Shown one piece after another: positions 15,162 through 34,602 of a stretch of DNA of 64,000 nt. Position 1 is the first letter of the stretch; every line of letters begins with the position of its first letter. Source of the DNA: Erythrobacter sp. SCSIO 43205. GTDB taxonomy: Bacteria; Pseudomonadota; Alphaproteobacteria; Sphingomonadales; Sphingomonadaceae. The notes beneath the pieces were generated by a model, which was not told the origin of the DNA, did no database searches, and saw nothing but the letters and a program-made list of their open reading frames with translations. A program made the position numbers and the translations under genes. The stretch is taken from assembly GCF_019904235.1 (NCBI RefSeq), contig NZ_CP063202.1, positions 2,232,001 through 2,296,000 on the forward strand. Direction: 5' to 3'.

Positions 15162-15638
15162 ATGTCTCTTCGCGAAGAATATTTCGACGATGGTCCGTGC
15201 CCGGACAACCCCGGTTGGCGGCAGTGGAACGTCAAGGACAAGACTATTTTCAACGGCGCGGTGATGGGGCATCTCATTACCCGCGTCGATGACGACGGCA
15301 AGGCGCGCCTGCGGATGTTTCCGGAGCGCCGCCATGAAAACCTGCAAGGTATGATCCACGGCGCGATCAGCCTGTCGCTGATCGACATATCCATGTTCAC
15401 GACCATGCACATGATCGGCAGCGGAAATGCTGGCCCGTCGGTAACTCTGGAATTGTCGACCCAATTTGTGGGAGCTGGTGATCCGGCCCTTCCGCTTGAT
15501 GCGGTGAACGAGATTGTGCGCGAAACAGGAAAGCTGGTCTTTGTGCGCGGGCAAGTGGTTCAGGGCAACAACGTTATCGTCTCCCATTCGGGCATCGTGC
15601 GCAAATTTTCGAGCACTCGCACTGACGCAAAATCATGA
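15162..15638 (+). CDS. PaaI-family hot-dog thioesterase
   Basis: A 158-residue hot-dog-fold protein, probably an acyl-CoA thioesterase. The fold's central region HENLQGMIHGAISLSLID carries the HG-x-x-x-x-x-x-x-D pattern (His-Gly then Asp at the helix end) used by PaaI thioesterases. The ATG at 15162 is preferred: an in-frame ORF extends upstream but only by overlapping sdhB in another frame. It begins 11 nt after the sdhB stop and ends with a 4-nt overlap into zapE, so the three form a likely operon. The substrate is unknown. Confidence 0.83.
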   Translation: MSLREEYFDDGPCPDNPGWRQWNVKDKTIFNGAVMGHLITRVDDDGKARLRMFPERRHENLQGMIHGAISLSLIDISMFTTMHMIGSGNAGPSVTLELSTQFVGAGDPALPLDAVNEIVRETGKLVFVRGQVVQGNNVIVSHSGIVRKFSSTRTDAKS

Positions 15639-16759
15639 CGGGGACGCTGGCGCGTTATGAGCAGCTGATCGCTAATGGAGAGCTGCGCGAAGATGCGGAT
15701 CAAAGACGCGCAGCAGCCCGGCTTGACGCCTTGCAAAAAGAGCTGGAGGCCGAAAAACCCGGCGGGCTTTTAGCTCAGCTGTTTGCGAGCAAACCGACCC
15801 GCCCTCAAGGTGTTTACATGGTGGGAGGCGTTGGCCGGGGTAAATCCATGTTGATGGACCTGTTCCACGACAATCTTGGGATTGCCGAAAAACGCCGCGT
15901 GCACTTCCACGCTTTCATGCAGGAAGTCCACGCCGAAATGCGCGAGGCGCGAAAAGCGCATGAAGGCGACCCCATTCCGCCAGTCGCTGCCAAACTTGCC
16001 AAGGGCGTCCGGGTTCTCGCGTTCGATGAAATGGTAGTCACCAATTCAGCCGATGCCATGATTATGAGCCGGCTTTTCACCCAGTTGATTATGGAGCAAG
16101 GCGTTACCATCGTAACCACCTCCAACCGTGCGCCCAGCGAGCTTTACAAAGACGGGCTCAACCGCGAGCATTTCCTCCCCTTCATCGACCTGATTGAGGC
16201 CGAGCTTGATGTGATGACGCTCGATGGCCCGACCGACTACCGGCTTGATCGGATCGGAGGGTTAGAAACATGGTATTCGCCCCTGGGGGACGAAGCCACG
16301 GCCAAAGTGCGCGAGGTGTTCTTTCGTCTCACAGATTTCGCCCCGGAGGATGCGGACAATGTGCCATCTGGTGAACTTGCGATTGGCGCGAAGCGTACGC
16401 TGCACGTTCCCAAATCATTGAAAGGCGTCGCAGTTTTCAGCTTCAAGCGCCTTTGTGCAGAGGCTCGTGGGGCGCCCGATTACCTTGCGATAGCGCGCGA
16501 ATATCACACGGTAATCCTCGTCGGCATCCCGCAAATGGGCCCCGAAAACCGGAATGAAGCGGCGCGGTTCGTCACCTTGATTGATGCCCTTTATGAGCAC
16601 CGCGTCAAACTGTTCGCGACCGCTGCAAGCGAGCCTGAAGCGCTCTACCCCTCAGGCGATGGCAGTTTCGAATTCGAGCGCACGGTGAGCCGCCTCAATG
16701 AAATGCAAAGCGATGAATATATGGCACTGGGCCACGGGTCAGACGGCAGCGAAGGATAG
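15635..16759 (+). CDS. zapE: Cell division protein ZapE (AFG1-like ATPase)
   Basis: A 374-residue AAA-type ATPase of the ZapE/AFG1/LACE1 family. Walker A is GGVGRGKSMLMD at about residues 64-75 and Walker B is VLAFDEMVV near residue 130. In E. coli ZapE binds FtsZ and destabilises Z-rings under stress; the mitochondrial homologue Afg1 helps degrade oxidative-phosphorylation subunits, which fits a neighbour encoding complex II. Its ATG overlaps the thioesterase stop by 4 nt. The stop lies 6 nt from the convergent crotonase stop. Confidence 0.92.
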   Translation: MTGTLARYEQLIANGELREDADQRRAAARLDALQKELEAEKPGGLLAQLFASKPTRPQGVYMVGGVGRGKSMLMDLFHDNLGIAEKRRVHFHAFMQEVHAEMREARKAHEGDPIPPVAAKLAKGVRVLAFDEMVVTNSADAMIMSRLFTQLIMEQGVTIVTTSNRAPSELYKDGLNREHFLPFIDLIEAELDVMTLDGPTDYRLDRIGGLETWYSPLGDEATAKVREVFFRLTDFAPEDADNVPSGELAIGAKRTLHVPKSLKGVAVFSFKRLCAEARGAPDYLAIAREYHTVILVGIPQMGPENRNEAARFVTLIDALYEHRVKLFATAASEPEALYPSGDGSFEFERTVSRLNEMQSDEYMALGHGSDGSEG

Positions 16760-16765
16760 ACCCAC

Positions 16766-17731
16766 TCAGGCCGCGGCAAGCCTGTCAGCAAGACGCCCCT
16801 GCGCGGATACCAGACGGCTCATCACTTTAAGATCGTGATCGGAAAGTTTGAGCGCGGTATCCGCCCAAAGCTCAGTGATCTCGTTGAGTTCGTCCAATTG
16901 TATCGGCCAGACCTTTTTCATGGCTTGATATGCGCCAACGATACCAGAGTGGCGACGTTCCGACTTCTTGATGAAGTCGCGTACAGCGCTAACGCCTTCG
17001 CCTGGCTCCGCAATCTGGTGGACGAGGCCAAGGTCGTACATCTCTTGCGCGGTATACGTCTTGTTCGACAAGATAATGCGCTCCGCCATCGCGGTGCCCA
17101 GTTTGCGAGCGAGAAAGGCGTGCGCGCCCATTCCGGGATAAAGGCCGAACATGATCTCAGGCAGGCCAAAGGTCGCGTGCCGTTCTGCAATGATATAATC
17201 GAATGAAAGGAGAGCCTCGAACCCACCGCCAAGCGCTGCGCCCTGGACAAGACCGATCGTTACCATCGGCAATCCCAGTGAACGAACATTGCGGTCAAGG
17301 ATGGCACAGCAGCGGTGACCGTACTGTACTAAGGCATCGCGGTTCTTGGTCCGGATCAGATGTTGAAACAACTCAAGATCACCGCCAAAACAGAAGACAT
17401 CCTGCGAGCGGCTGCCAAGCACGAGATAGCGCAGCGGAACTTTGTCTTCGCCAAAACCGGTCGAGATCAACTCCTGCCACCGCTCGAAATCTCCGAGCAT
17501 GGCCGGCGTGAAGCTTGGCCGGCCCTTGGGACGCATATAGGTCCACAATGCCGCATCACGATCATCGTAAAGAACATCGAGCTCACGAAGCTCAAACAAA
17601 CCATCTGGAACGGCGTTATTCAGAAGGCTCTCGGAAAGTGCCTCCTCGTCCCCTGAAAACGGGAGAGGATTTCCCGCGCTGCTGTCCATCGCACCATTCT
17701 CCGGACTCGACCCAAAGTCCGCCAGACTCAT
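16766..17731 (-). CDS. Crotonase-family DSF synthase homologue (RpfF-like)
   Basis: A 321-residue crotonase that resembles Xanthomonas RpfF, which converts 3-hydroxyacyl-ACP to the diffusible signal cis-2-enoic acid by dehydration and thioester cleavage. Shared segments include FGGDLELF (RpfF FNLGGDLALF), GLVQGAALGGGFEALLS, GLPEIMFGLYPGMGA and ITELWADTALKL. The catalytic glutamates of RpfF (141 and 161) correspond to Glu172 and Glu192, with the same 20-residue spacing. Start: ATG 17731 gives 321 residues; a longer frame reaches 17860 across a likely regulatory repeat, and ATG 17689 has a good Shine-Dalgarno (CCGGAG, about 9 nt upstream) and would give 307. It follows the XrtA cluster on the same strand, 185 nt after the amidotransferase. 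No rpfC/rpfG is visible. A plain enoyl-CoA hydratase is the alternative. Confidence 0.8.
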   Translation of the reverse strand: MSLADFGSSPENGAMDSSAGNPLPFSGDEEALSESLLNNAVPDGLFELRELDVLYDDRDAALWTYMRPKGRPSFTPAMLGDFERWQELISTGFGEDKVPLRYLVLGSRSQDVFCFGGDLELFQHLIRTKNRDALVQYGHRCCAILDRNVRSLGLPMVTIGLVQGAALGGGFEALLSFDYIIAERHATFGLPEIMFGLYPGMGAHAFLARKLGTAMAERIILSNKTYTAQEMYDLGLVHQIAEPGEGVSAVRDFIKKSERRHSGIVGAYQAMKKVWPIQLDELNEITELWADTALKLSDHDLKVMSRLVSAQGRLADRLAAA

Positions 17732-17783
17732 GCCTTGGCGGTTTGCGCAGACTTCTTTGGCCCGCGTCGAAGTCAAATTAGTC

Positions 17784-17803
17784 CGATTTTGCACGATTTT
17801 GCA
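17784..17803 (-). repeat. Perfect tandem 10-bp repeat upstream of the RpfF-like gene
   Basis: CGATTTTGCA occurs twice head to tail (17784-17793 and 17794-17803, plus strand), about 53-72 nt upstream of the ATG at 17731. A one-helical-turn tandem in a promoter region is a typical layout for an activator or repressor site. AT-rich sequence with a TATAAC-like -10 on the minus strand lies nearby at about 17866-17875. The rest of 17732-17916 shows no gene. Confidence 0.4.
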
Positions 17804-17916
17804 AATAGATAATTTACCATCTTCGACAGTCTTGATCACCACTGTGACAAAATGGGACAAATAAATGTTATATTATTTCACCAACTTTGAAGGTGTTGCT
17901 GTGGCCCGGCGCATCG

Positions 17917-19815
17917 TCACAATTGAACATTGAGATTGACCAAGGATTTTTCCAGCATCAGCAACTGCCACAAGGTGCGCGAATGATCACTGCGCCCGGA
18001 AATGTGGGCGTTGGCCAATTTGCCCGCTTCGGACGGGTTTGCCCAACCCATTTGGACAAGTCGGGAGGACGATGCGATTGCTCTGATCTCGTGCGCCAAC
18101 GGACCTCGCATCCATTGTGCGATTGGCGTTACAAACCCTTGTTTTGGGCGGTATAAAACATCCTGCGGGAGGTAGCGCTCCATACATTTTTTGAGCAAAT
18201 ATTTGCCGGTCCTCCCACGCACCCTCAAACTTTCAGGCAATTTTGCGGCAAATTCGACCAATCGATGATCAAGCAGTGGCTCGCGCGCTTCGAGGCTTAC
18301 CGCCATGCTGGTGCGATCAACCTTGGTAAGGATATCACCGGGCATCCAAAATTTAAGGTCAGCGTATTGAGCCCGGTCGAGGCCCGATCGCGCAGGCGCC
18401 TTTCGCAAAACTTCAGTAAGCTCGGCTTCGGAGGAAAATCCCGCCAGTTGAGAATTGAACTCAGGCGTAAAGATCCGCGAACGCAGGTCAGGATTGGTTA
18501 CGCTTAACGCATTTGCATAACTCTGCTCCCCCTCCTCAGCGAGTGACAGCAGAGTTGTCTTGGCGCGAAAGATTTGTGGTGCCCAGTCTGCCTTGGGCCA
18601 CAATCGGCCAAGGCCGCCAAACATGGGTTCGCGCAAGCCGCTTGGCAAAAGCGAACGCACACGCTCTTCGTTATGATGGAAAACCTGCCTGCGATAACCT
18701 GCAAACGCCTCATCCGCGCCGTCGCCGGAAAGAGCCACAGTGACCTTTTCACGCGCCAATTGACACACACGCCAAGTTGGCAGGGCCGAGGCATCGGCGA
18801 AAGGCTCATCGAACATCGCGGCCAGAGCATCAATCTCGCCAAAGTCGTCCTGGCTGACGGTTCGTACCTCATGCGATGTCGCAAATTGTTGGGCAATCTT
18901 TTGCGCATAGCCCGTCTCGTCAACCGACTTAACGTCAAAGCCAATGGAGCAGGTTTGTACAGGCTGGGCGCTGGCCTCGCTCATCAAGGCGACGACGCTT
19001 GAGGAGTCAACGCCGCCGGACAGAAACGCGCCAAGCGGCACGTCCGATACCATGCGCGATTGCACTGCCTCCCTCAGAAGATGGACAAGCTCTGCAGACA
19101 GATCGCCTTCTTTGCCTTTGAGGCGTTCTTCAAAGCTGATGTCCCACCAACGGCGCTGCGCTGGCATCGGCTTGCCGTGTTCAAGCAGAAGGAAATGCCC
19201 GGCCTGGAGCTTCGTCACACCGCTCAGAATCGAATGACTATCGGGCACATAACCCCAAGTCATGTATGCCTCGACCGCCTGCGGATTAATCCGACGGCGC
19301 ATCATTGGATGAGCCAGGAGCCCCTTAAGCTCCGAGGCAAAGATCAGGCTGCCGTCTGACAAGTGCGAGAGGAAGAGTGGCTTCACCCCGAAACGGTCGC
19401 GCGCGAGAAAGAGTTGACGCTTGTCCAGATCATAAAGCGCAAAGCCAAACATACCATCGAGATGTGAAAGGCAGTCCGGGCCCCAGCGCTGCCAAGCGGC
19501 AAGGATGACTTCGGTATCGCCAGAGGTGCGAAATTGCGCGCCATCGCGTTCCAATTGTGTGCGCAGTTCGCGAAAGTTGTAAATCTCTCCATTAAAGACG
19601 ATGGCCGCCCTGCCATCGCCAGAGAGCATTGGTTGAGGCGATCCTTCGAGGTCGATGATCGATAAGCGGCGATGGCCCAGCCCTATGCCCGCCTCGGTCC
19701 AGACACCTGCCCCGTCCGGCCCACGATGGACCATGGCGTCACACATTCGTTCAACCCGAACTGGATCGACCGGTTTTGGCGTCTCTCGATGAAATATCCC
19801 GGCGATCCCGCACAT
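17917..19815 (-). CDS. XrtA/PEP-CTERM system amidotransferase (asparagine synthetase B-like)
   Basis: A 632-residue class II glutamine amidotransferase fused to an ATP-pyrophosphatase synthetase domain. The nucleophile Cys2 follows the initiator Met (MCGIAGIF), with glutaminase motifs VHRGPDGAGVW, HRRLSIIDL and VFNGEIYNF; the synthetase PP-loop SGGVDSS is at 266-272. Paralogues in exosortase A loci are thought to amidate a sugar or other building block of the exported polysaccharide rather than make asparagine. It starts 12 nt after the exosortase A stop and ends the tightly packed run of XrtA genes. Confidence 0.92.
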   Translation of the reverse strand: MCGIAGIFHRETPKPVDPVRVERMCDAMVHRGPDGAGVWTEAGIGLGHRRLSIIDLEGSPQPMLSGDGRAAIVFNGEIYNFRELRTQLERDGAQFRTSGDTEVILAAWQRWGPDCLSHLDGMFGFALYDLDKRQLFLARDRFGVKPLFLSHLSDGSLIFASELKGLLAHPMMRRRINPQAVEAYMTWGYVPDSHSILSGVTKLQAGHFLLLEHGKPMPAQRRWWDISFEERLKGKEGDLSAELVHLLREAVQSRMVSDVPLGAFLSGGVDSSSVVALMSEASAQPVQTCSIGFDVKSVDETGYAQKIAQQFATSHEVRTVSQDDFGEIDALAAMFDEPFADASALPTWRVCQLAREKVTVALSGDGADEAFAGYRRQVFHHNEERVRSLLPSGLREPMFGGLGRLWPKADWAPQIFRAKTTLLSLAEEGEQSYANALSVTNPDLRSRIFTPEFNSQLAGFSSEAELTEVLRKAPARSGLDRAQYADLKFWMPGDILTKVDRTSMAVSLEAREPLLDHRLVEFAAKLPESLRVRGRTGKYLLKKCMERYLPQDVLYRPKQGFVTPIAQWMRGPLAHEIRAIASSSRLVQMGWANPSEAGKLANAHISGRSDHSRTLWQLLMLEKSLVNLNVQL

Positions 19816-19827
19816 AATAAGAGCGCG

Positions 19828-20859
19828 CTAGCCGATTGCGACAGGGGCAGCAATCATCGCTGTCCCGCCTGCCAGAATACAAAGCGCCAGTGTCCCTGCC
19901 AACACCTTCATGGGGGAGGCATGATAGGGCTCAAGCCGCTTGAGGATTTCGAACCCGTGCACCTCGTCAACGCTCCAGCCGTAATCTTCCGGGTCGCGTT
20001 CGAAATATCTCCACGCAAGACCGAGGATGAGGATCACGACAAAGGCGAAGAAGAACCAGCCATAAAACACATGGTCAAAGCCCGCAGCGAACTCAACGCC
20101 CTGGCTTTGGGCGATAAAGATAGTGCCCCAAGCGCGGATACCGTTTGCGATGATGGGAATTATGATTGAGGCCGCCAGAAAGGCTAACCTTCGCGACCAG
20201 CTGGTAAAGCGGGTATATGCCACAAGCACCGCAAGCGTGATCATTGCGATCAGGAAACGCACGCCTGAGCAAGCCTCTGCCACGATAAAGAGGCCAACAG
20301 GGGTGTCGATATATATCCCGTCTGAAAACGCCGGGATGCCGCTGAGATGGGTCAAAACAATCGCAATCTCAGCCGTAATAACTTGGAGGGGTTCTATGAT
20401 TTCATCGCCAAAAGGCACGAGAAAAACCCCAAAGCACAAAGGCAAGGCGATGATGGTGCAAGCTCTTGGGCCAAGAGATGCGATGACGATCCCTTGAAGC
20501 GTGCCCACGGCACCGGCATGAGCGATGAGGTTGGTGTCGGTCATCCTCCCCACGAACCAAAGCACAAGGCCCATTGCGATGACACCAAGGCCAGGCAGCC
20601 ATGGCTTAGGGGCAATTTGGGCAAGTTCACTCGCCTTGAGCGCGACGAGCCAGCCGATGATGAAGGGGATAAGCAAAATGTGTGAATAGGTGTCGATGTT
20701 CCACCATTGGTGAAACATTTCGCCCCATTCGCGCATCGTCACTGCAAGGCTCGCTAATGAGCCCAGAACAAGCAGTCCCAAAGCCTCGCGCCAGTGAGGG
20801 GCGATGCGCGAGACGAGCCTGTGAGTATTCGGGCTTTCAAGCGTCACGTCAGGCGGCAT
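19828..20859 (-). CDS. xrtA: Exosortase A
   Basis: A 343-residue polytopic inner-membrane transpeptidase predicted to cleave PEP-CTERM sorting signals and link proteins to the envelope or exopolysaccharide. The catalytic residues sit in or next to membrane helices: Cys197 in VAEACSGVRFL, Arg242 in ANGIRAWG and His263 in FDHVFYGWFF. About eight helices precede a cytoplasmic segment (285-312). The protein ends right after one further helix (316-340, MKVLAGTLALCILAGG...), which looks like the start of the EpsI domain fused to many XrtA proteins, the rest being absent. ATG 20859 is preferred over an in-frame GTG at 20883 because of its Shine-Dalgarno. It overlaps the glycosyltransferase gene by 11 nt. 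Confidence 0.93.
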   Translation of the reverse strand: MPPDVTLESPNTHRLVSRIAPHWREALGLLVLGSLASLAVTMREWGEMFHQWWNIDTYSHILLIPFIIGWLVALKASELAQIAPKPWLPGLGVIAMGLVLWFVGRMTDTNLIAHAGAVGTLQGIVIASLGPRACTIIALPLCFGVFLVPFGDEIIEPLQVITAEIAIVLTHLSGIPAFSDGIYIDTPVGLFIVAEACSGVRFLIAMITLAVLVAYTRFTSWSRRLAFLAASIIIPIIANGIRAWGTIFIAQSQGVEFAAGFDHVFYGWFFFAFVVILILGLAWRYFERDPEDYGWSVDEVHGFEILKRLEPYHASPMKVLAGTLALCILAGGTAMIAAPVAIG

Positions 20860-22072
20860 CACGCGCGTCTCCCCTTCCTGCACTCACGAGCCACTCAAGC
20901 GGAGCAAGCATCGCGTTCCAATTGTGATGATCGAGTACAAACTGGCGTGCCGCCTTACCCATTGCCCTGGCAGCGCTTTGGTTCGCGCGAAAAGCGTCGA
21001 TGCGATTTTGCATGGCCTGGGGCTCTAGCTCGCACAGCATCCAGTGCTCGCCATCAGCCGCATCAATTCCTGTTGCCGCTTCGCTAGTCAGCAGCACTGG
21101 TCGGGCCATGGCCATGGCCTCCAACACTTTGTTCTGAACCCCACGCGCGATTGACAATGGCACAATCACACTATCAGCCGCTGCGATGAACGGACGCACA
21201 TCGGGAACCTCTCCCCAAATGATTACACCCTCACCAGCTTTGTCCTGCAATCGCTTGGTCGGATTGCGGCCGACGATGTGTAATTCCGCATCGGTGTGTT
21301 GCGACTTGTACAAGGCGAAAAACGACTCAATTGCCCAAAGTGCCGCTTGTTCGTTGGGTGGATAATCCATTTGTCCGGTGAAGACGAAGTGGGGTCCGGG
21401 ACGCCGTGACAGTTCAGGATGAGGCGAGGTGCGAGATGGGTCGAAAAAGTCTGAATCAATCCCATTACCGATCACCTGCACATTTGTTTTGTGAGGGACC
21501 GTTAGGCGCGAGCGGAACAGCTCAGCTTCGTTGTCGCTAATCAGGATCGTTGCATCGGCCCGCGCGGCCAAGCGCTCTTCTTCTCGTGCCAGCAAGCGGC
21601 CTTCTCGCGAGTTCAGCCTCACGCGCTGTCCTGCGGCTGCATAGTTTTCGAACTTGGCGCTATCGACATCGCACAGGTCAATCACCACCCGGCCAGCAAA
21701 ATCGTCAGGGATATATTGGCCCATCTGCCCTGAAAAAACGAAGATTGTGGTTATGGGACGAGTGGCGAGCGTGTGGCGCACCCATTCTTCAAGGCGGGCA
21801 GAATGAAAGGCGGTGAGGCTCACAGGCTTGCCAGTCAGAACCGCTTCTGCCCCTGCAAGGACCAGTGGCTTGCTGCGATTGACCACGCAATGCGATGCGG
21901 CAATCGCTTCAACCTCTTTGCCCCCTGCCCGGTCTTCGGCATTCTCGGCAAAGCAACCCACATGAACAGGCGCGAGGCTTGCGAGCTTTTTGAGCAGATT
22001 GGAGCTGCGGATCTTATCTCCGCGATTGGGCGGAAAGGGAACCCGGTGCGCTAGGAAAAGAATCTCACCCAT
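20849..22072 (-). CDS. XrtA/PEP-CTERM system glycosyltransferase (TIGR03087-like)
   Basis: A 407-residue GT-B fold glycosyltransferase. The N-terminal domain starts LFLAHRVPFPPNRGDKIRS, typical of this exosortase-linked family. The C-terminal domain has the GT4-like signature FTGQMDYPPNEQAALW followed by HIVGRNPT and a donor-binding stretch AADSVIVPLSIARGVQNKVLEAMAM, where the Glu of NKVLEAMA is the usual nucleotide-sugar contact. It would add a sugar to the lipid-linked repeat unit in the cytoplasm. It overlaps xrtA by 11 nt downstream and lies 12 nt after the FemAB-like gene. Confidence 0.92.
   Translation of the reverse strand: MGEILFLAHRVPFPPNRGDKIRSSNLLKKLASLAPVHVGCFAENAEDRAGGKEVEAIAASHCVVNRSKPLVLAGAEAVLTGKPVSLTAFHSARLEEWVRHTLATRPITTIFVFSGQMGQYIPDDFAGRVVIDLCDVDSAKFENYAAAGQRVRLNSREGRLLAREEERLAARADATILISDNEAELFRSRLTVPHKTNVQVIGNGIDSDFFDPSRTSPHPELSRRPGPHFVFTGQMDYPPNEQAALWAIESFFALYKSQHTDAELHIVGRNPTKRLQDKAGEGVIIWGEVPDVRPFIAAADSVIVPLSIARGVQNKVLEAMAMARPVLLTSEAATGIDAADGEHWMLCELEPQAMQNRIDAFRANQSAARAMGKAARQFVLDHHNWNAMLAPLEWLVSAGRGDARDAA
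20869..20878 (-). promoter_or_regulatory. Shine-Dalgarno deciding the xrtA start
   Basis: The minus-strand sequence GGAAGGGGAG ends 9 nt before the ATG at 20859. It lies inside the end of the glycosyltransferase gene and favours that ATG over the upstream GTG at 20883, suggesting translational coupling. Confidence 0.6.
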
Positions 22073-31608: not shown

Positions 31609-33164
31609 CGCATTGCCCCCTCAGCTTCGCCTTCGGTCAATTCACGGTACAACGCCGTGCGATCAATCTTGCCATTGGGATTGAGCGGAAGTGCGTCTTT
31701 CCAGTGGATCACTTGCGGTTGCATGAAATTGGGAAGTTCCTTGAGCAAAGCTTTGGGAAGTGTGGCTTCTTCCACTCCTTCGCTTCCGCGCCTTACCACC
31801 AGATGCACCGCTTGCCCAAGCCTTGTATCAGGGATCCCGAGCGCGACCGCTTCGGCCACCATTCCGGTTGCCAACGCAGCTTCCTCGATCTCTTGCGGGC
31901 TAATCCGATTGCCCGCACTTTTGATCATCGCATCGCGTCGTCCAACGAAATAGAGAAGGCCGTTCGCATCACGCTTCACCCGGTCACCGGACCACACTGC
32001 CGTCCCGCCGTAGTGCGAGCCATCCGGTGCCGGCTTGAACCGTTCCGAAGTGCGTTTTTCGTCCTGCCAGTACCCTTTCGCAACCAGTGGACCACAATGG
32101 ACCAGCTCGCCTTCCTCATCTGCACCTGCAATCTCGCCATCGTCGTTGATGACGAGAATCTCTGCGAAAGGAATGGCCTTGCCCATGCTTGTCGGGTGAC
32201 TTTCGACCAGCGTGGGATCGAGATAGGTCGAACGAAACGCCTCTGTCAGGCCATACATGGGATAGAGGTCTGCGGCGGGGAAAAGCGCGCTGAGATCGTT
32301 CACCAAATCAGTGGTCAGCGCGCCGCCACTATTGGTAAGCCTGCGCAATGGCGTAGACGCGTCCTGCGGCCAATCGATCTCAGTCAACTGAACCCAAAGC
32401 GGCGGAACGGCGGCAAGTGTTGTAATTTGATGCTTCGCGCAAGCTTTCGCCACGTCGCGGGGGAAGAGGAAATCTAGCGGCACCACACTACCCCCTGCAT
32501 ACCAGGTCGAAAGCAGCTGGTTCTGCCCATAGTCGAAAGAGAGGGGCAACACCGCGAGGGTCACATCATCGCTCGCCAATTTGAGGTAATGCGCAACGCT
32601 CACCGCCCCTAGCCACAGGTTTGCATGGCTCAGCACGACGCCTTTTGGACGGCCCGTTGAGCCGCTGGTGTAGAGGATAGCGCAAACATCATCGGGGTTG
32701 GCACTCGACGGCTCCATCGCTACTTCTGCGTCCCATGCTGCTTCTAGCGCAGCGGTCTCTTCAAACTTCACGCAATCGGCCGGCACATCGCCCTCTTCCA
32801 GCGATTTTAGCCGTGAAGGCGTCGCGATCAGCAATTGTGCCCCACTGTCCGCCAAAATATGTGCAGCCTGTGCGCGCTTCAAAAGCGGATTGATCGGCAC
32901 ATGGATCAGCCCCGCCCTTGCCGCTGCCAATGGCAAAAGACACGTAAGCTCACCCTTCGCCGCCCAGCTCGCAATGCGCGCACCCTTTTGAGGCACTTCG
33001 CGCGCAAGCCACCCGGCAAGGTTACTCACACGCTCTCTTAACGCATTGTGGTTAAGGACTTCGCTGCGAAGCACCAGCGCAGGGCTTTCGCCATGACCGT
33101 TTTGACGCGCTCGTTCTACGAGGTGGTCCAGCGGATAAGGCGTAGGGTCTGGCGGCGGTGTCAT
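31605..33164 (-). CDS. Acyl-AMP ligase, exosortase A system-associated
   Basis: A 519-residue ANL-superfamily adenylating enzyme. The ATP motif is ILYTSGSTGRPKGVVLSH at about residues 168-185, the mid-domain ADLYPMYGLTEAFRST is the A5 motif, and the C-terminal LPLNPNGKIDRTALY carries the catalytic Lys. It would activate a carboxylic or amino acid and load it onto a phosphopantetheine carrier, presumably the ACP encoded on the other strand 1.1 kb away. It begins the minus-strand part of the locus; its ATG lies inside the longest form of the divergent gene. Confidence 0.92.
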   Translation of the reverse strand: MTPPPDPTPYPLDHLVERARQNGHGESPALVLRSEVLNHNALRERVSNLAGWLAREVPQKGARIASWAAKGELTCLLPLAAARAGLIHVPINPLLKRAQAAHILADSGAQLLIATPSRLKSLEEGDVPADCVKFEETAALEAAWDAEVAMEPSSANPDDVCAILYTSGSTGRPKGVVLSHANLWLGAVSVAHYLKLASDDVTLAVLPLSFDYGQNQLLSTWYAGGSVVPLDFLFPRDVAKACAKHQITTLAAVPPLWVQLTEIDWPQDASTPLRRLTNSGGALTTDLVNDLSALFPAADLYPMYGLTEAFRSTYLDPTLVESHPTSMGKAIPFAEILVINDDGEIAGADEEGELVHCGPLVAKGYWQDEKRTSERFKPAPDGSHYGGTAVWSGDRVKRDANGLLYFVGRRDAMIKSAGNRISPQEIEEAALATGMVAEAVALGIPDTRLGQAVHLVVRRGSEGVEEATLPKALLKELPNFMQPQVIHWKDALPLNPNGKIDRTALYRELTEGEAEGAMR

Positions 33165-33193
33165 TAGATTCCTTATCGAAGGGCACTCAATTA

Positions 33194-34219
33194 GTGATCG
33201 AAGCGCGGTATCACGACGAGGTTAACGTCTTGCAAGAGCTGTTTGAAGATAGCTCCCTTGCAAAACCGCGTGCGCCCTTTGACCGCGCTTCATGGTATGC
33301 GCTGCTGGCCGAGGCGGGTTTGCGCCCCTTGATCGCGATTGCGAGTGATCAAAACAATGCAGCTGCACTCGCGTTGACCGAAAATCACGGGCATATCACT
33401 CCGCTTCGCAACTGGTACAGTTTCACTTGGAGGCAATTGGCACCTGAAGGCGATCGGGGCGATGCGCTCCTTTTGGAAATCGCAAAACAGCTCAAAAACA
33501 GGTCGCATCGTGTCACTCTCGAACCCGTCCCTGATGAAGATGGCTCCGCGACACGCCTCGCCGCTGCTTTCAATAGTGCGGGATGGCGCGTTGAGGTGGT
33601 GCAGTGTGACACGAACCATGTCCTGCACGTCAATGGTCGCAGCTTCGACGATTATTGGCTCTCGCGCCCCGGCCCGCTGCGCACGACGCTGAAACGCAAA
33701 GGTGCCAAGGTTAAAACGCGCATTCTGACCCATTTCGATGCCGATGCGTGGGACGCATATGAGACGATATACGAAGCAAGCTGGAAGCCGTCTGAGGATA
33801 ATCCAGAAATGCTGCGCCGATTTGCTGAGCAAGAAGGTGAGGCAGGTCGCCTGCGATTAGGGCTCGCTATGTGCGAGGGGATTCCGGTCGCGGCCCAATG
33901 TTGGACCGTCGAGAATGGCTGCGCCTATATTCACAAGCTTGCGCACCTTCAAAGTGCGCGCAAATTGTCCGCTGGCACAACGCTTTCAGCTGCGCTTTTC
34001 AAGCACGCGATCGATGTGGACGGCGTTGGTCTGGTTGACTTTGGTACGGGCACACAAAGCTATAAGGCGGATTGGATGGAGGACGTGCGTCCGCGCTATC
34101 GCATTGACTGTTTCAACCTCTCATCCCTGCACGGTTGGCATGATCTGGCTCGTCTCACTGCAAGACGCCTTACTCTGCCAGAGGTGCCTATGCTTGCACC
34201 AAGCCCTCCACGCAGTTAA
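33194..34219 (+). CDS. GNAT/BioF2-like acyltransferase of the XrtA locus
   Basis: A 341-residue Acetyltransf_6 (CelD/BcsL-like) protein. The C-terminal half shows the domain pattern: GIPVAAQCWTVENGCAYIHKLAH, of which the His-Lys-Leu stretch is characteristic, then GTTLSAALFKHAID and VDFGTGTQSYKADWM. The start chosen is GTG 33194, about 9 nt after AAGGGC; a longer frame from GTG 33158 would overlap the start of the divergent ligase gene by 7 nt. It probably transfers an acyl or aminoacyl group supplied by the ACP encoded next. It heads the plus-strand unit of four locus genes. Confidence 0.84.
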   Translation: MIEARYHDEVNVLQELFEDSSLAKPRAPFDRASWYALLAEAGLRPLIAIASDQNNAAALALTENHGHITPLRNWYSFTWRQLAPEGDRGDALLLEIAKQLKNRSHRVTLEPVPDEDGSATRLAAAFNSAGWRVEVVQCDTNHVLHVNGRSFDDYWLSRPGPLRTTLKRKGAKVKTRILTHFDADAWDAYETIYEASWKPSEDNPEMLRRFAEQEGEAGRLRLGLAMCEGIPVAAQCWTVENGCAYIHKLAHLQSARKLSAGTTLSAALFKHAIDVDGVGLVDFGTGTQSYKADWMEDVRPRYRIDCFNLSSLHGWHDLARLTARRLTLPEVPMLAPSPPRS

Positions 34220-34287
34220 GGGCCCTCCCGCAGGGCGCGTGTAAGGGTGCCCGTGGGTCAAACGCCTCAGAAGAAGGATCGCAAGGG

Positions 34288-34602
34288 ATGGGTTCTCAGC
34301 CGGCTAAAGCAGACGCAGTGCCAGAGGAACAGGCGCCACAAGAACAAGCATTGGCAATTCAGCTGAAATCCATCATCGCCGATGTGCTTGGCATTGATGC
34401 CGAAGATGCAGCCGCACTTGATGAAGACAGCGGCCTGTTCGGACACCTGCCCGAACTTGACTCGATGGCCGTCGCTGGGCTTTTGACGGAAATCGAAGAC
34501 CGTCTCGACATCGTAATTGAAGATGAGGATGTGGACGGCGAAATGCTTGAAACCTTTGGCGGATTGTTGGCCTTTGCAAAGGCGAAGCTGGCCGAGGGCT
34601 GA
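34288..34602 (+). CDS. Acyl carrier protein of the exosortase A locus
   Basis: A 104-residue dedicated carrier protein. The 4'-phosphopantetheine attachment Ser is in LPELDSMAVAGLL, the DS(M/L) motif, at about residue 54. The body is strongly acidic as in other ACPs, with an extra 20-residue Gln/Glu/Ala-rich N-terminus. It would hold the acyl or aminoacyl group made by the adjacent ligase and decarboxylase. It follows the acyltransferase gene by 68 nt, a gap containing a GCCCT-loop-AGGGC hairpin near 34219-34237, and precedes hydrolase 2 by 6 nt. Confidence 0.92.
   Translation: MGSQPAKADAVPEEQAPQEQALAIQLKSIIADVLGIDAEDAAALDEDSGLFGHLPELDSMAVAGLLTEIEDRLDIVIEDEDVDGEMLETFGGLLAFAKAKLAEG

Follow-up and report, generated by a model that had tools for sequence, protein, structure and literature searches.

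An RpfF-family DSF synthase gene beside an exosortase A locus in Erythrobacter sp. SCSIO 43205 and a candidate membrane GGDEF-EAL sensor

Described DSF systems and the Erythrobacter locus

Most descriptions of diffusible signal factor (DSF) signaling concern pathogens of plants and humans, and two core perception pathways are distinguished, RpfC/RpfG and RpfR, both of which are tied to cyclic di-GMP (c-di-GMP) turnover (PMC4504480). RpfF synthesizes the signal by dehydrating a 3-hydroxyacyl-acyl carrier protein (ACP) and releasing the acid, and rpfF lies convergent with rpfR (PMC6361424). RpfR is given as the DSF receptor of such networks in a 2022 review of c-di-GMP sensing (PMC8846402); for Burkholderia, a review from 2026 also lists BCAM0227 and DsfR (PMC12838280). 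Here we report on an RpfF-family gene in a stretch of 64,000 nucleotides from Erythrobacter sp. SCSIO 43205 (contig NZ_CP063202.1, positions 2,232,001 to 2,296,000), hereafter the window, where the gene adjoins an exosortase A (xrtA) locus, and on a candidate for its sensor encoded elsewhere in the same genome. We put at roughly 0.7 the probability that the two form a DSF-type circuit, in which the signal of the RpfF-family synthase would be sensed by a separate membrane GGDEF-EAL protein that shifts c-di-GMP.

The RpfF-RpfC-RpfG system of Xanthomonas and Stenotrophomonas resembles the present one in its RpfF-family synthase, and an RpfC-like kinase gene converges on the synthase gene in 16 of 116 synthase-bearing relatives. 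However, the RpfC-like input domain had no match in the genome that contains the window at E values of ≤1e-6 or 1e-12 (profile A2), and whereas RpfG is an HD-GYP protein, the gene upstream of the kinase gene encodes a REC-PAS-GGDEF-EAL protein instead in all 15 RpfC-like loci of the family that were read (by similarity to locus L037; domains checked by Pfam in L037 and L109). The RpfF-RpfR system of Burkholderia and Cronobacter is alike in that a GGDEF-EAL gene is convergent with rpfF in 25 of 100 relatives, and in that the closest structures to the synthase are those of DfsA and Cronobacter RpfF. It differs in that RpfR has a cytosolic FI-PAS domain where the candidate sensor has a six-helix membrane domain, and the two genes are unlinked in the lineage of the window. 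RpfS, BCAM0227, PA1396, and DsfR are further receptors of the same signal family (PMC4504480, PMC12838280); they are kinases or an acyl-CoA ligase, and none is described in the accessible parts of these reviews as a membrane GGDEF-EAL protein. The synthase adds a member to a known family, whereas the proposed circuit is neither that of RpfC nor that of RpfR, and the domain that supplies its receptor candidate has no name. This candidate is a membrane-bound enzyme of c-di-GMP turnover and seems to be a previously undescribed type of receptor.

Many alphaproteobacteria of the Erythrobacter type thus appear to have a DSF-type circuit with a receptor that Pfam does not name, and in one clade the synthase is kept inside a polysaccharide and protein-sorting locus; the candidate for the missing sensor is narrowed to one specific gene per genome. 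We found no literature joining exosortases and rpfF in a search whose reach did not extend to most subscription journals, and the papers retrieved for rpfF with Erythrobacter or Novosphingobium dealt, by title, with other subjects.

Family membership of the synthase

The intact frame of the synthase gene is on the minus strand (16766..17689), and plus-strand frame 1 of 16766..17803 has four stops. The open frame reaches 17860, and its likely start codon is the ATG at 17689, within the span of 16766..17803 given in the initial annotation, giving a protein of 307 amino acids that begins with MDSSA; exactly this length was found in 12 of 42 homologous frames called among relatives. The genome, a single contig of 3.38 Mb, has one strong synthase match and ten weaker ones, the best of which has an E value of 2.5e-12. 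Among named relatives, the one closest to the protein comes from a Qipengyuania sp. (locus L009), with 83% identity by tblastn and 86% in the tree alignment.

The match to RpfF goes well past what chance would produce. The protein matched NF006452 (PRK08788) with an E value of 3.6e-106 and 354.5 bits against a cut-off of 177, and fragments of proven synthases scored similarly under the same model (RpfF of Xanthomonas campestris pv. campestris [Xcc], 395.7 bits; Stenotrophomonas maltophilia RpfF-1, 381.7 bits; DfsA, 399.6 bits). The public name of this model is "crotonase/enoyl-CoA hydratase family protein," with signaling unmentioned. The first four PDB sequence matches were DSF synthases by entry title (E values of 1.1e-50 to 1.5e-43), and the next protein followed at 5.6e-17. 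The narrow RpfF equivalog NF053515, with a cut-off of 550, gave only 209.2 bits; fragments of DfsA, Xcc RpfF, and S. maltophilia RpfF-1 gave 186.1, 524, and 511.8 bits, respectively. Because DfsA, a proven synthase, falls below this cut-off too, what the model picks out is the xanthomonad group and not the function, and we set it aside as a functional test. The best NCBIfam model of the synthase is not an exosortase-associated one.

The gene is a member of the RpfF/DfsA family, that of the DSF synthases, and not one of the ordinary enoyl-CoA hydratases; the tree, the pocket residues (RpfF Trp258 and Leu276), and the predicted structure agree. In the tree, in which the hydratases and DfsA are long branches, the synthase groups with proven DSF synthases, apart from six hydratases of its own genome, with support of 100/100. 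All seven acyl-pocket residues listed for Xcc RpfF in PMC9864630 are kept (Gly85, Leu136, Gly137, Gly138, Met170, Trp258, and Leu276 in Xcc numbering). The predicted structure (predicted local distance difference test [pLDDT] of 82) is closest in fold to DfsA and Cronobacter RpfF. The structural comparison supports the RpfF/DfsA branch only, because DspI of Pseudomonas aeruginosa, the proposed maker of cis-2-decenoic acid, ranks 27 in it, among ordinary hydratases. The homology to RpfF proposed in the initial annotation is therefore upheld: no clustering with enoyl-CoA hydratases was seen in the tree, and the acyl pocket is complete.

The same annotation had taken both catalytic glutamates, 20 residues apart, as a mark of RpfF. 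Their spacing and their alignment to RpfF Glu141 and Glu161 hold, but their numbering as 172 and 192 does not: counted from the MDSSA start they are Glu158 and Glu178 (196 and 216 in the frame used earlier). The pair is not diagnostic, because some hydratases share it. Both RpfF glutamates have counterparts among enoyl-CoA hydratase residues according to a review (PMC9864630), and among the six hydratase paralogues of the genome Glu occurs at the first position in four, at the second in two, and at both in two. Spacing was accordingly dropped as proof of RpfF. That the gene encodes an ordinary enoyl-CoA hydratase of fatty-acid breakdown, a reading that draws on the common crotonase fold, the glutamate pair, and the placement by Pfam in general enoyl-CoA hydratase (ECH) families only, is extremely improbable, and we regard it as ruled out by the tree, in which the six paralogues split off at 100/100, and by the pocket residues and structure, which fit DSF synthases.

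The candidate sensor and its association with the synthase

The GGDEF-EAL partner that adjoins the synthase gene in some relatives is a protein of ~660 amino acids with a hydrophobic N-terminus that has no Pfam match. Its size first suggested RpfR, but the N-terminus is a membrane domain, and a PAS domain sought in the sensor had no match. The N-termini of the proteins from three loci (L030, L038, and L039) are homologous, with 32 to 40% identity. The genome that contains the window encodes a member of this family beside malate dehydrogenase (L062:5087-7018), ~211 kb from the synthase gene, with its GGDEF, EAL, and DDFGTG motifs intact. The sensor had been expected to lie elsewhere or to be of a new type; for this best candidate, a membrane GGDEF-EAL protein, both apply.

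In the predicted structure of a close homologue (P0008, with 79% identity over the N-terminal region; pLDDT of 81.7, predicted template modeling score of 0.47), helices span residues 26-47, 50-72, 82-109, 114-134, 139-160, and 163-211, and the last continues into the GGDEF domain. A hydropathy scan of single sensor sequences gave four to six well-separated segments. Weak Pfam matches of the membrane domain (E values of 0.021 to 0.56, to unrelated transmembrane families, each in one of seven members) were taken as chance. When another FI-PAS-GGDEF-EAL protein was sought in the genome with a PdeR-type GGDEF/EAL model rather than with an RpfR sequence, there were 17 matches (L129-L145), none of which extended into the first 218 positions of the model.

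Judging from proven homologues, the synthase would dehydrate a 3-hydroxyacyl-ACP and release a cis-2-unsaturated fatty acid. This signal would be sensed by the separate membrane protein, for which six transmembrane helices are predicted, the sixth leading into GGDEF, followed by EAL, and would shift the balance between synthesis and breakdown of c-di-GMP, with consequences for surface or biofilm functions. The membrane enzyme most likely stands in for RpfC/RpfG or RpfR and would act as a one-protein system, in which the membrane domain would capture a lipophilic signal and set c-di-GMP directly; a membrane domain that, in the model, has no periplasmic part would suit such a ligand. We infer both the binding of a ligand by this domain and any effect on the XrtA genes.

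Distribution was surveyed in an order sample of 147 genomes, with a profile made of the three sensor-linked N-termini only (A1), and in a family sample of 347 genomes, with a seven-row profile of the membrane sensor (A3, six rows from sample genomes) and a five-row profile of the RpfC-like input domain (A2, two rows from the family sample). In the order sample, 20 genomes had the synthase and 114 the XrtA amidotransferase. A1 matched in 16 of the 20 synthase genomes, two of which (G100 and G110) had supplied query rows; the genome containing the window was among the 16 (E value of 6.2e-39), and the four negative ones were those with a full RpfC-like gene. Among the 127 genomes without synthase, A1 matched in 11 (9 strongly), and the RpfC-like profile matched shorter frames in 4.

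In the family sample, where in many genomes only part of the first-look candidates for the synthase, both sensors, and the amidotransferase was scored, the synthase was found in 116 genomes, the membrane sensor in 121 at an E value of <1e-30 (126 at 1e-12), and the RpfC-like kinase in 16 at an E value of <1e-40 (21 at 1e-12). At the stricter thresholds, the 116 synthase genomes divided into 100 with the membrane GGDEF-EAL protein and 16 with the RpfC-like kinase, with none having both and none having neither. The thresholds left out five sensor genomes with E values of only 1e-17 to 1e-13 (G388, G331, G184, G182, and G219) and five RpfC-like ones with E values of 1e-24 to 1e-32 and frames of 561 to 642 amino acids (G031, G086, G403, G121, and G123), none of these ten with a synthase, as well as three more RpfC-like matches of this kind in G394, a synthase genome that also carries a full RpfC-like gene. 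No RpfC-like kinase was counted without a synthase (0 of 16), and the membrane sensor occurred without one in 21 of 121 genomes, including G405, whose frame has only 344 amino acids. The association of membrane sensor and synthase gave a Fisher p of 5e-48, uncorrected for kinship. Within 12 genera variable for the synthase, the sensor occurred in all 30 synthase-positive genomes and in 13 of the 46 negative ones (Mantel-Haenszel p of 4e-9), in a table made by hand from named genomes only, in which unlisted negatives are missing and G095 comes from the order sample. The strongest element of the case is the partition of 100 + 16 = 116, by which the synthase is tied to the sensor more tightly than to xrtA.

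The synthase gene has two settings, either between AFG1 and the xrtA locus or beside and convergent with a sensor gene, that of the RpfC-like kinase or that of the membrane GGDEF-EAL protein. The membrane sensor gene is next door in 25 of the 100 genomes, always convergent, and in trans in 75. In the linked pairs the stop codons lie -70 to +58 bases apart in all 23 loci read (22 of the 25, plus L030). The sensors encoded in trans make up a single clade of the sensor tree (100/100), which is nested next to the linked pairs L099/L102, L106, and L096/L101, and the xrtA-sited synthases fall at the matching place in the synthase tree, where some deep forks are weakly supported. Between synthase and sensor distances the correlation is 0.90 (37 pairs), a value reached by 0 of 2000 permutations. 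The parallel trees suggest that the pair was probably linked and later split. The simplest account is that an ancestral linked pair split once, the synthase gene moving to xrtA and the sensor gene to malate dehydrogenase and succinate-CoA ligase, beside which the trans sensor sits, with later losses of the synthase.

Several observations weigh against the proposed circuit. The sensor domain shows no relation to the RpfC-like input domain (hhalign probability of 0.1 to 0.2), so that its reading as a variant of that domain was rejected, and it has no recognizable RpfF-binding part. The genes behind profiles A2 and A3 came from genomes that have the synthase, and the parallelism of the trees, which carry no marker-gene correction, comes partly from shared species history. 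The two genes are unlinked in the genome studied here. The 21 sensor genomes without synthase imply that the sensor may have another input, and they also favor the alternative that a DSF-type signal is made but the membrane GGDEF-EAL protein is an old neighbor sensing something else, with another protein as the true receptor; the distance between the genes and the 17 GGDEF/EAL-model matches in the genome point the same way. We consider this alternative rather unlikely, in view of the non-overlapping split with the RpfC-like kinase across 116 of 116 genomes, the within-genus association, and the close convergent stops in 23 of 23 loci.

The xrtA position

An intact RpfF-like crotonase gene does adjoin the XrtA amidotransferase gene, as reading frames and family models confirm. 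The XrtA/PEP-CTERM amidotransferase gene (17917..19815, minus strand; TIGR03108, 950.6 bits against a cut-off of 816.9) is the conserved upstream neighbor, and 227 bases (17690..17916, minus strand) separate its stop from the likely synthase start; no match to a sigma-70-like consensus was found in 16500-18200. The other conserved flank of this position is an AFG1-family ATPase gene (15635..16759, plus strand), which converges on the synthase gene with six bases between the stops. Farther upstream of the synthase are exosortase A (19828..20883, minus strand; TIGR03109, 308.8 bits against a cut-off of 208), glycosyltransferase, FemAB, deacetylase, ATPase, and chain-length and export genes, and beyond the export genes an exosortase-associated decarboxylase and acyl ligase, an ACP-like protein (34288-34602), and two hydrolases. 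A second GNAT-type (FemAB-like) protein gene accompanies the ACP-like gene beside the exosortase-associated acyl ligase (33158-34602).

Such a neighborhood raises the alternative that the synthase is an RpfF-family acyl-ACP dehydratase/thioesterase in the service of the xrtA locus itself. Its substrate would be carried by the ACP-like protein, its partners would be the exosortase-associated acyl ligase and the hydrolases, for all of which the locus has genes, and its product would be no signal but an acyl component for the exopolysaccharide system. The amidotransferase position was absent or not listed in 33 of the 116 synthase genomes. In the 58 sensor-in-trans genomes in which it is listed, the synthase gene lies within 1 kb of the amidotransferase gene in 52, within 8 kb in 6, and far away in none, as this alternative would have it. 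The 41 sensor-adjacent genomes tell otherwise, since the amidotransferase position is listed in 25 of them and in none of the 25 is it near the synthase gene, which sits beside the sensor gene instead. At least 127 of 243 amidotransferase genomes are without the synthase, and three loci (L036, L122, and L123) keep the synthase with no xrtA or amidotransferase match in the fetched stretch. A role confined to the xrtA locus thus appears improbable, even more so than the alternative of an old neighbor. Given these same absences, and with the sensor as the tighter partner, the xrtA neighborhood does not establish that surface assembly is under the control of cell density, as the initial annotation had suggested.

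Next to xrtA, the synthase gene has a second, conserved location, which was seen solely in combination with a sensor in trans (58 of 58 genomes for which the position is listed). Of the remaining 17 sensor-in-trans loci, eight were read (L036 and L122-L128), as was L029 of Novosphingobium; in these nine, xrtA-locus genes are beside the synthase gene in eight, and L126 has only AFG1 and SdhB genes within 12 kb. In L036, L122, and L123 the synthase gene remains beside leftover xrtA-locus genes (ATPase, decarboxylase, and ligase). In L033-L035, the amidotransferase and synthase genes are separated by genes of an ATP-binding cassette (ABC) transporter; Pfam identifies them as ABC ATPase and ABC-2 permease in L033, and those of L034 and L035 were assigned by similarity.

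Returning to the circuit with a membrane GGDEF-EAL sensor, a broader proposal is somewhat less secure, though still rather likely in our judgment: the six-helix domain with GGDEF-EAL would be a third core class of DSF receptor, usual in Erythrobacter-type bacteria, and in one clade the synthase gene would have relocated to the exosortase locus, which would couple surface assembly to the signal.

RpfC-like kinase loci

The label "RpfC-like" rests on architecture and position. HisKA, HATPase, and REC domains were found in five of five kinases scanned and Hpt in four of five, after a hydrophobic N-terminus, and the input domain presumably resembles that of Xanthomonas RpfC. In L031, L041, and L042 the kinase gene is near the synthase gene but not adjoining it (1.3 to 1.8 kb).

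In two other families of the order, an RpfF-like protein carries a C-terminal haem-oxygenase-like domain (PF14518, iron-containing redox enzyme; L041:7019-8911 and L042:7320-9386), encoded near RpfC-like and other kinase genes; this domain may modify the product further. Besides, proteins of 561 to 584 amino acids with an RpfC-like membrane input domain occur in four genomes without synthase (L085-L088 in G121, G031, G086, and G123), and it is possible that they are listeners to signals of other species.
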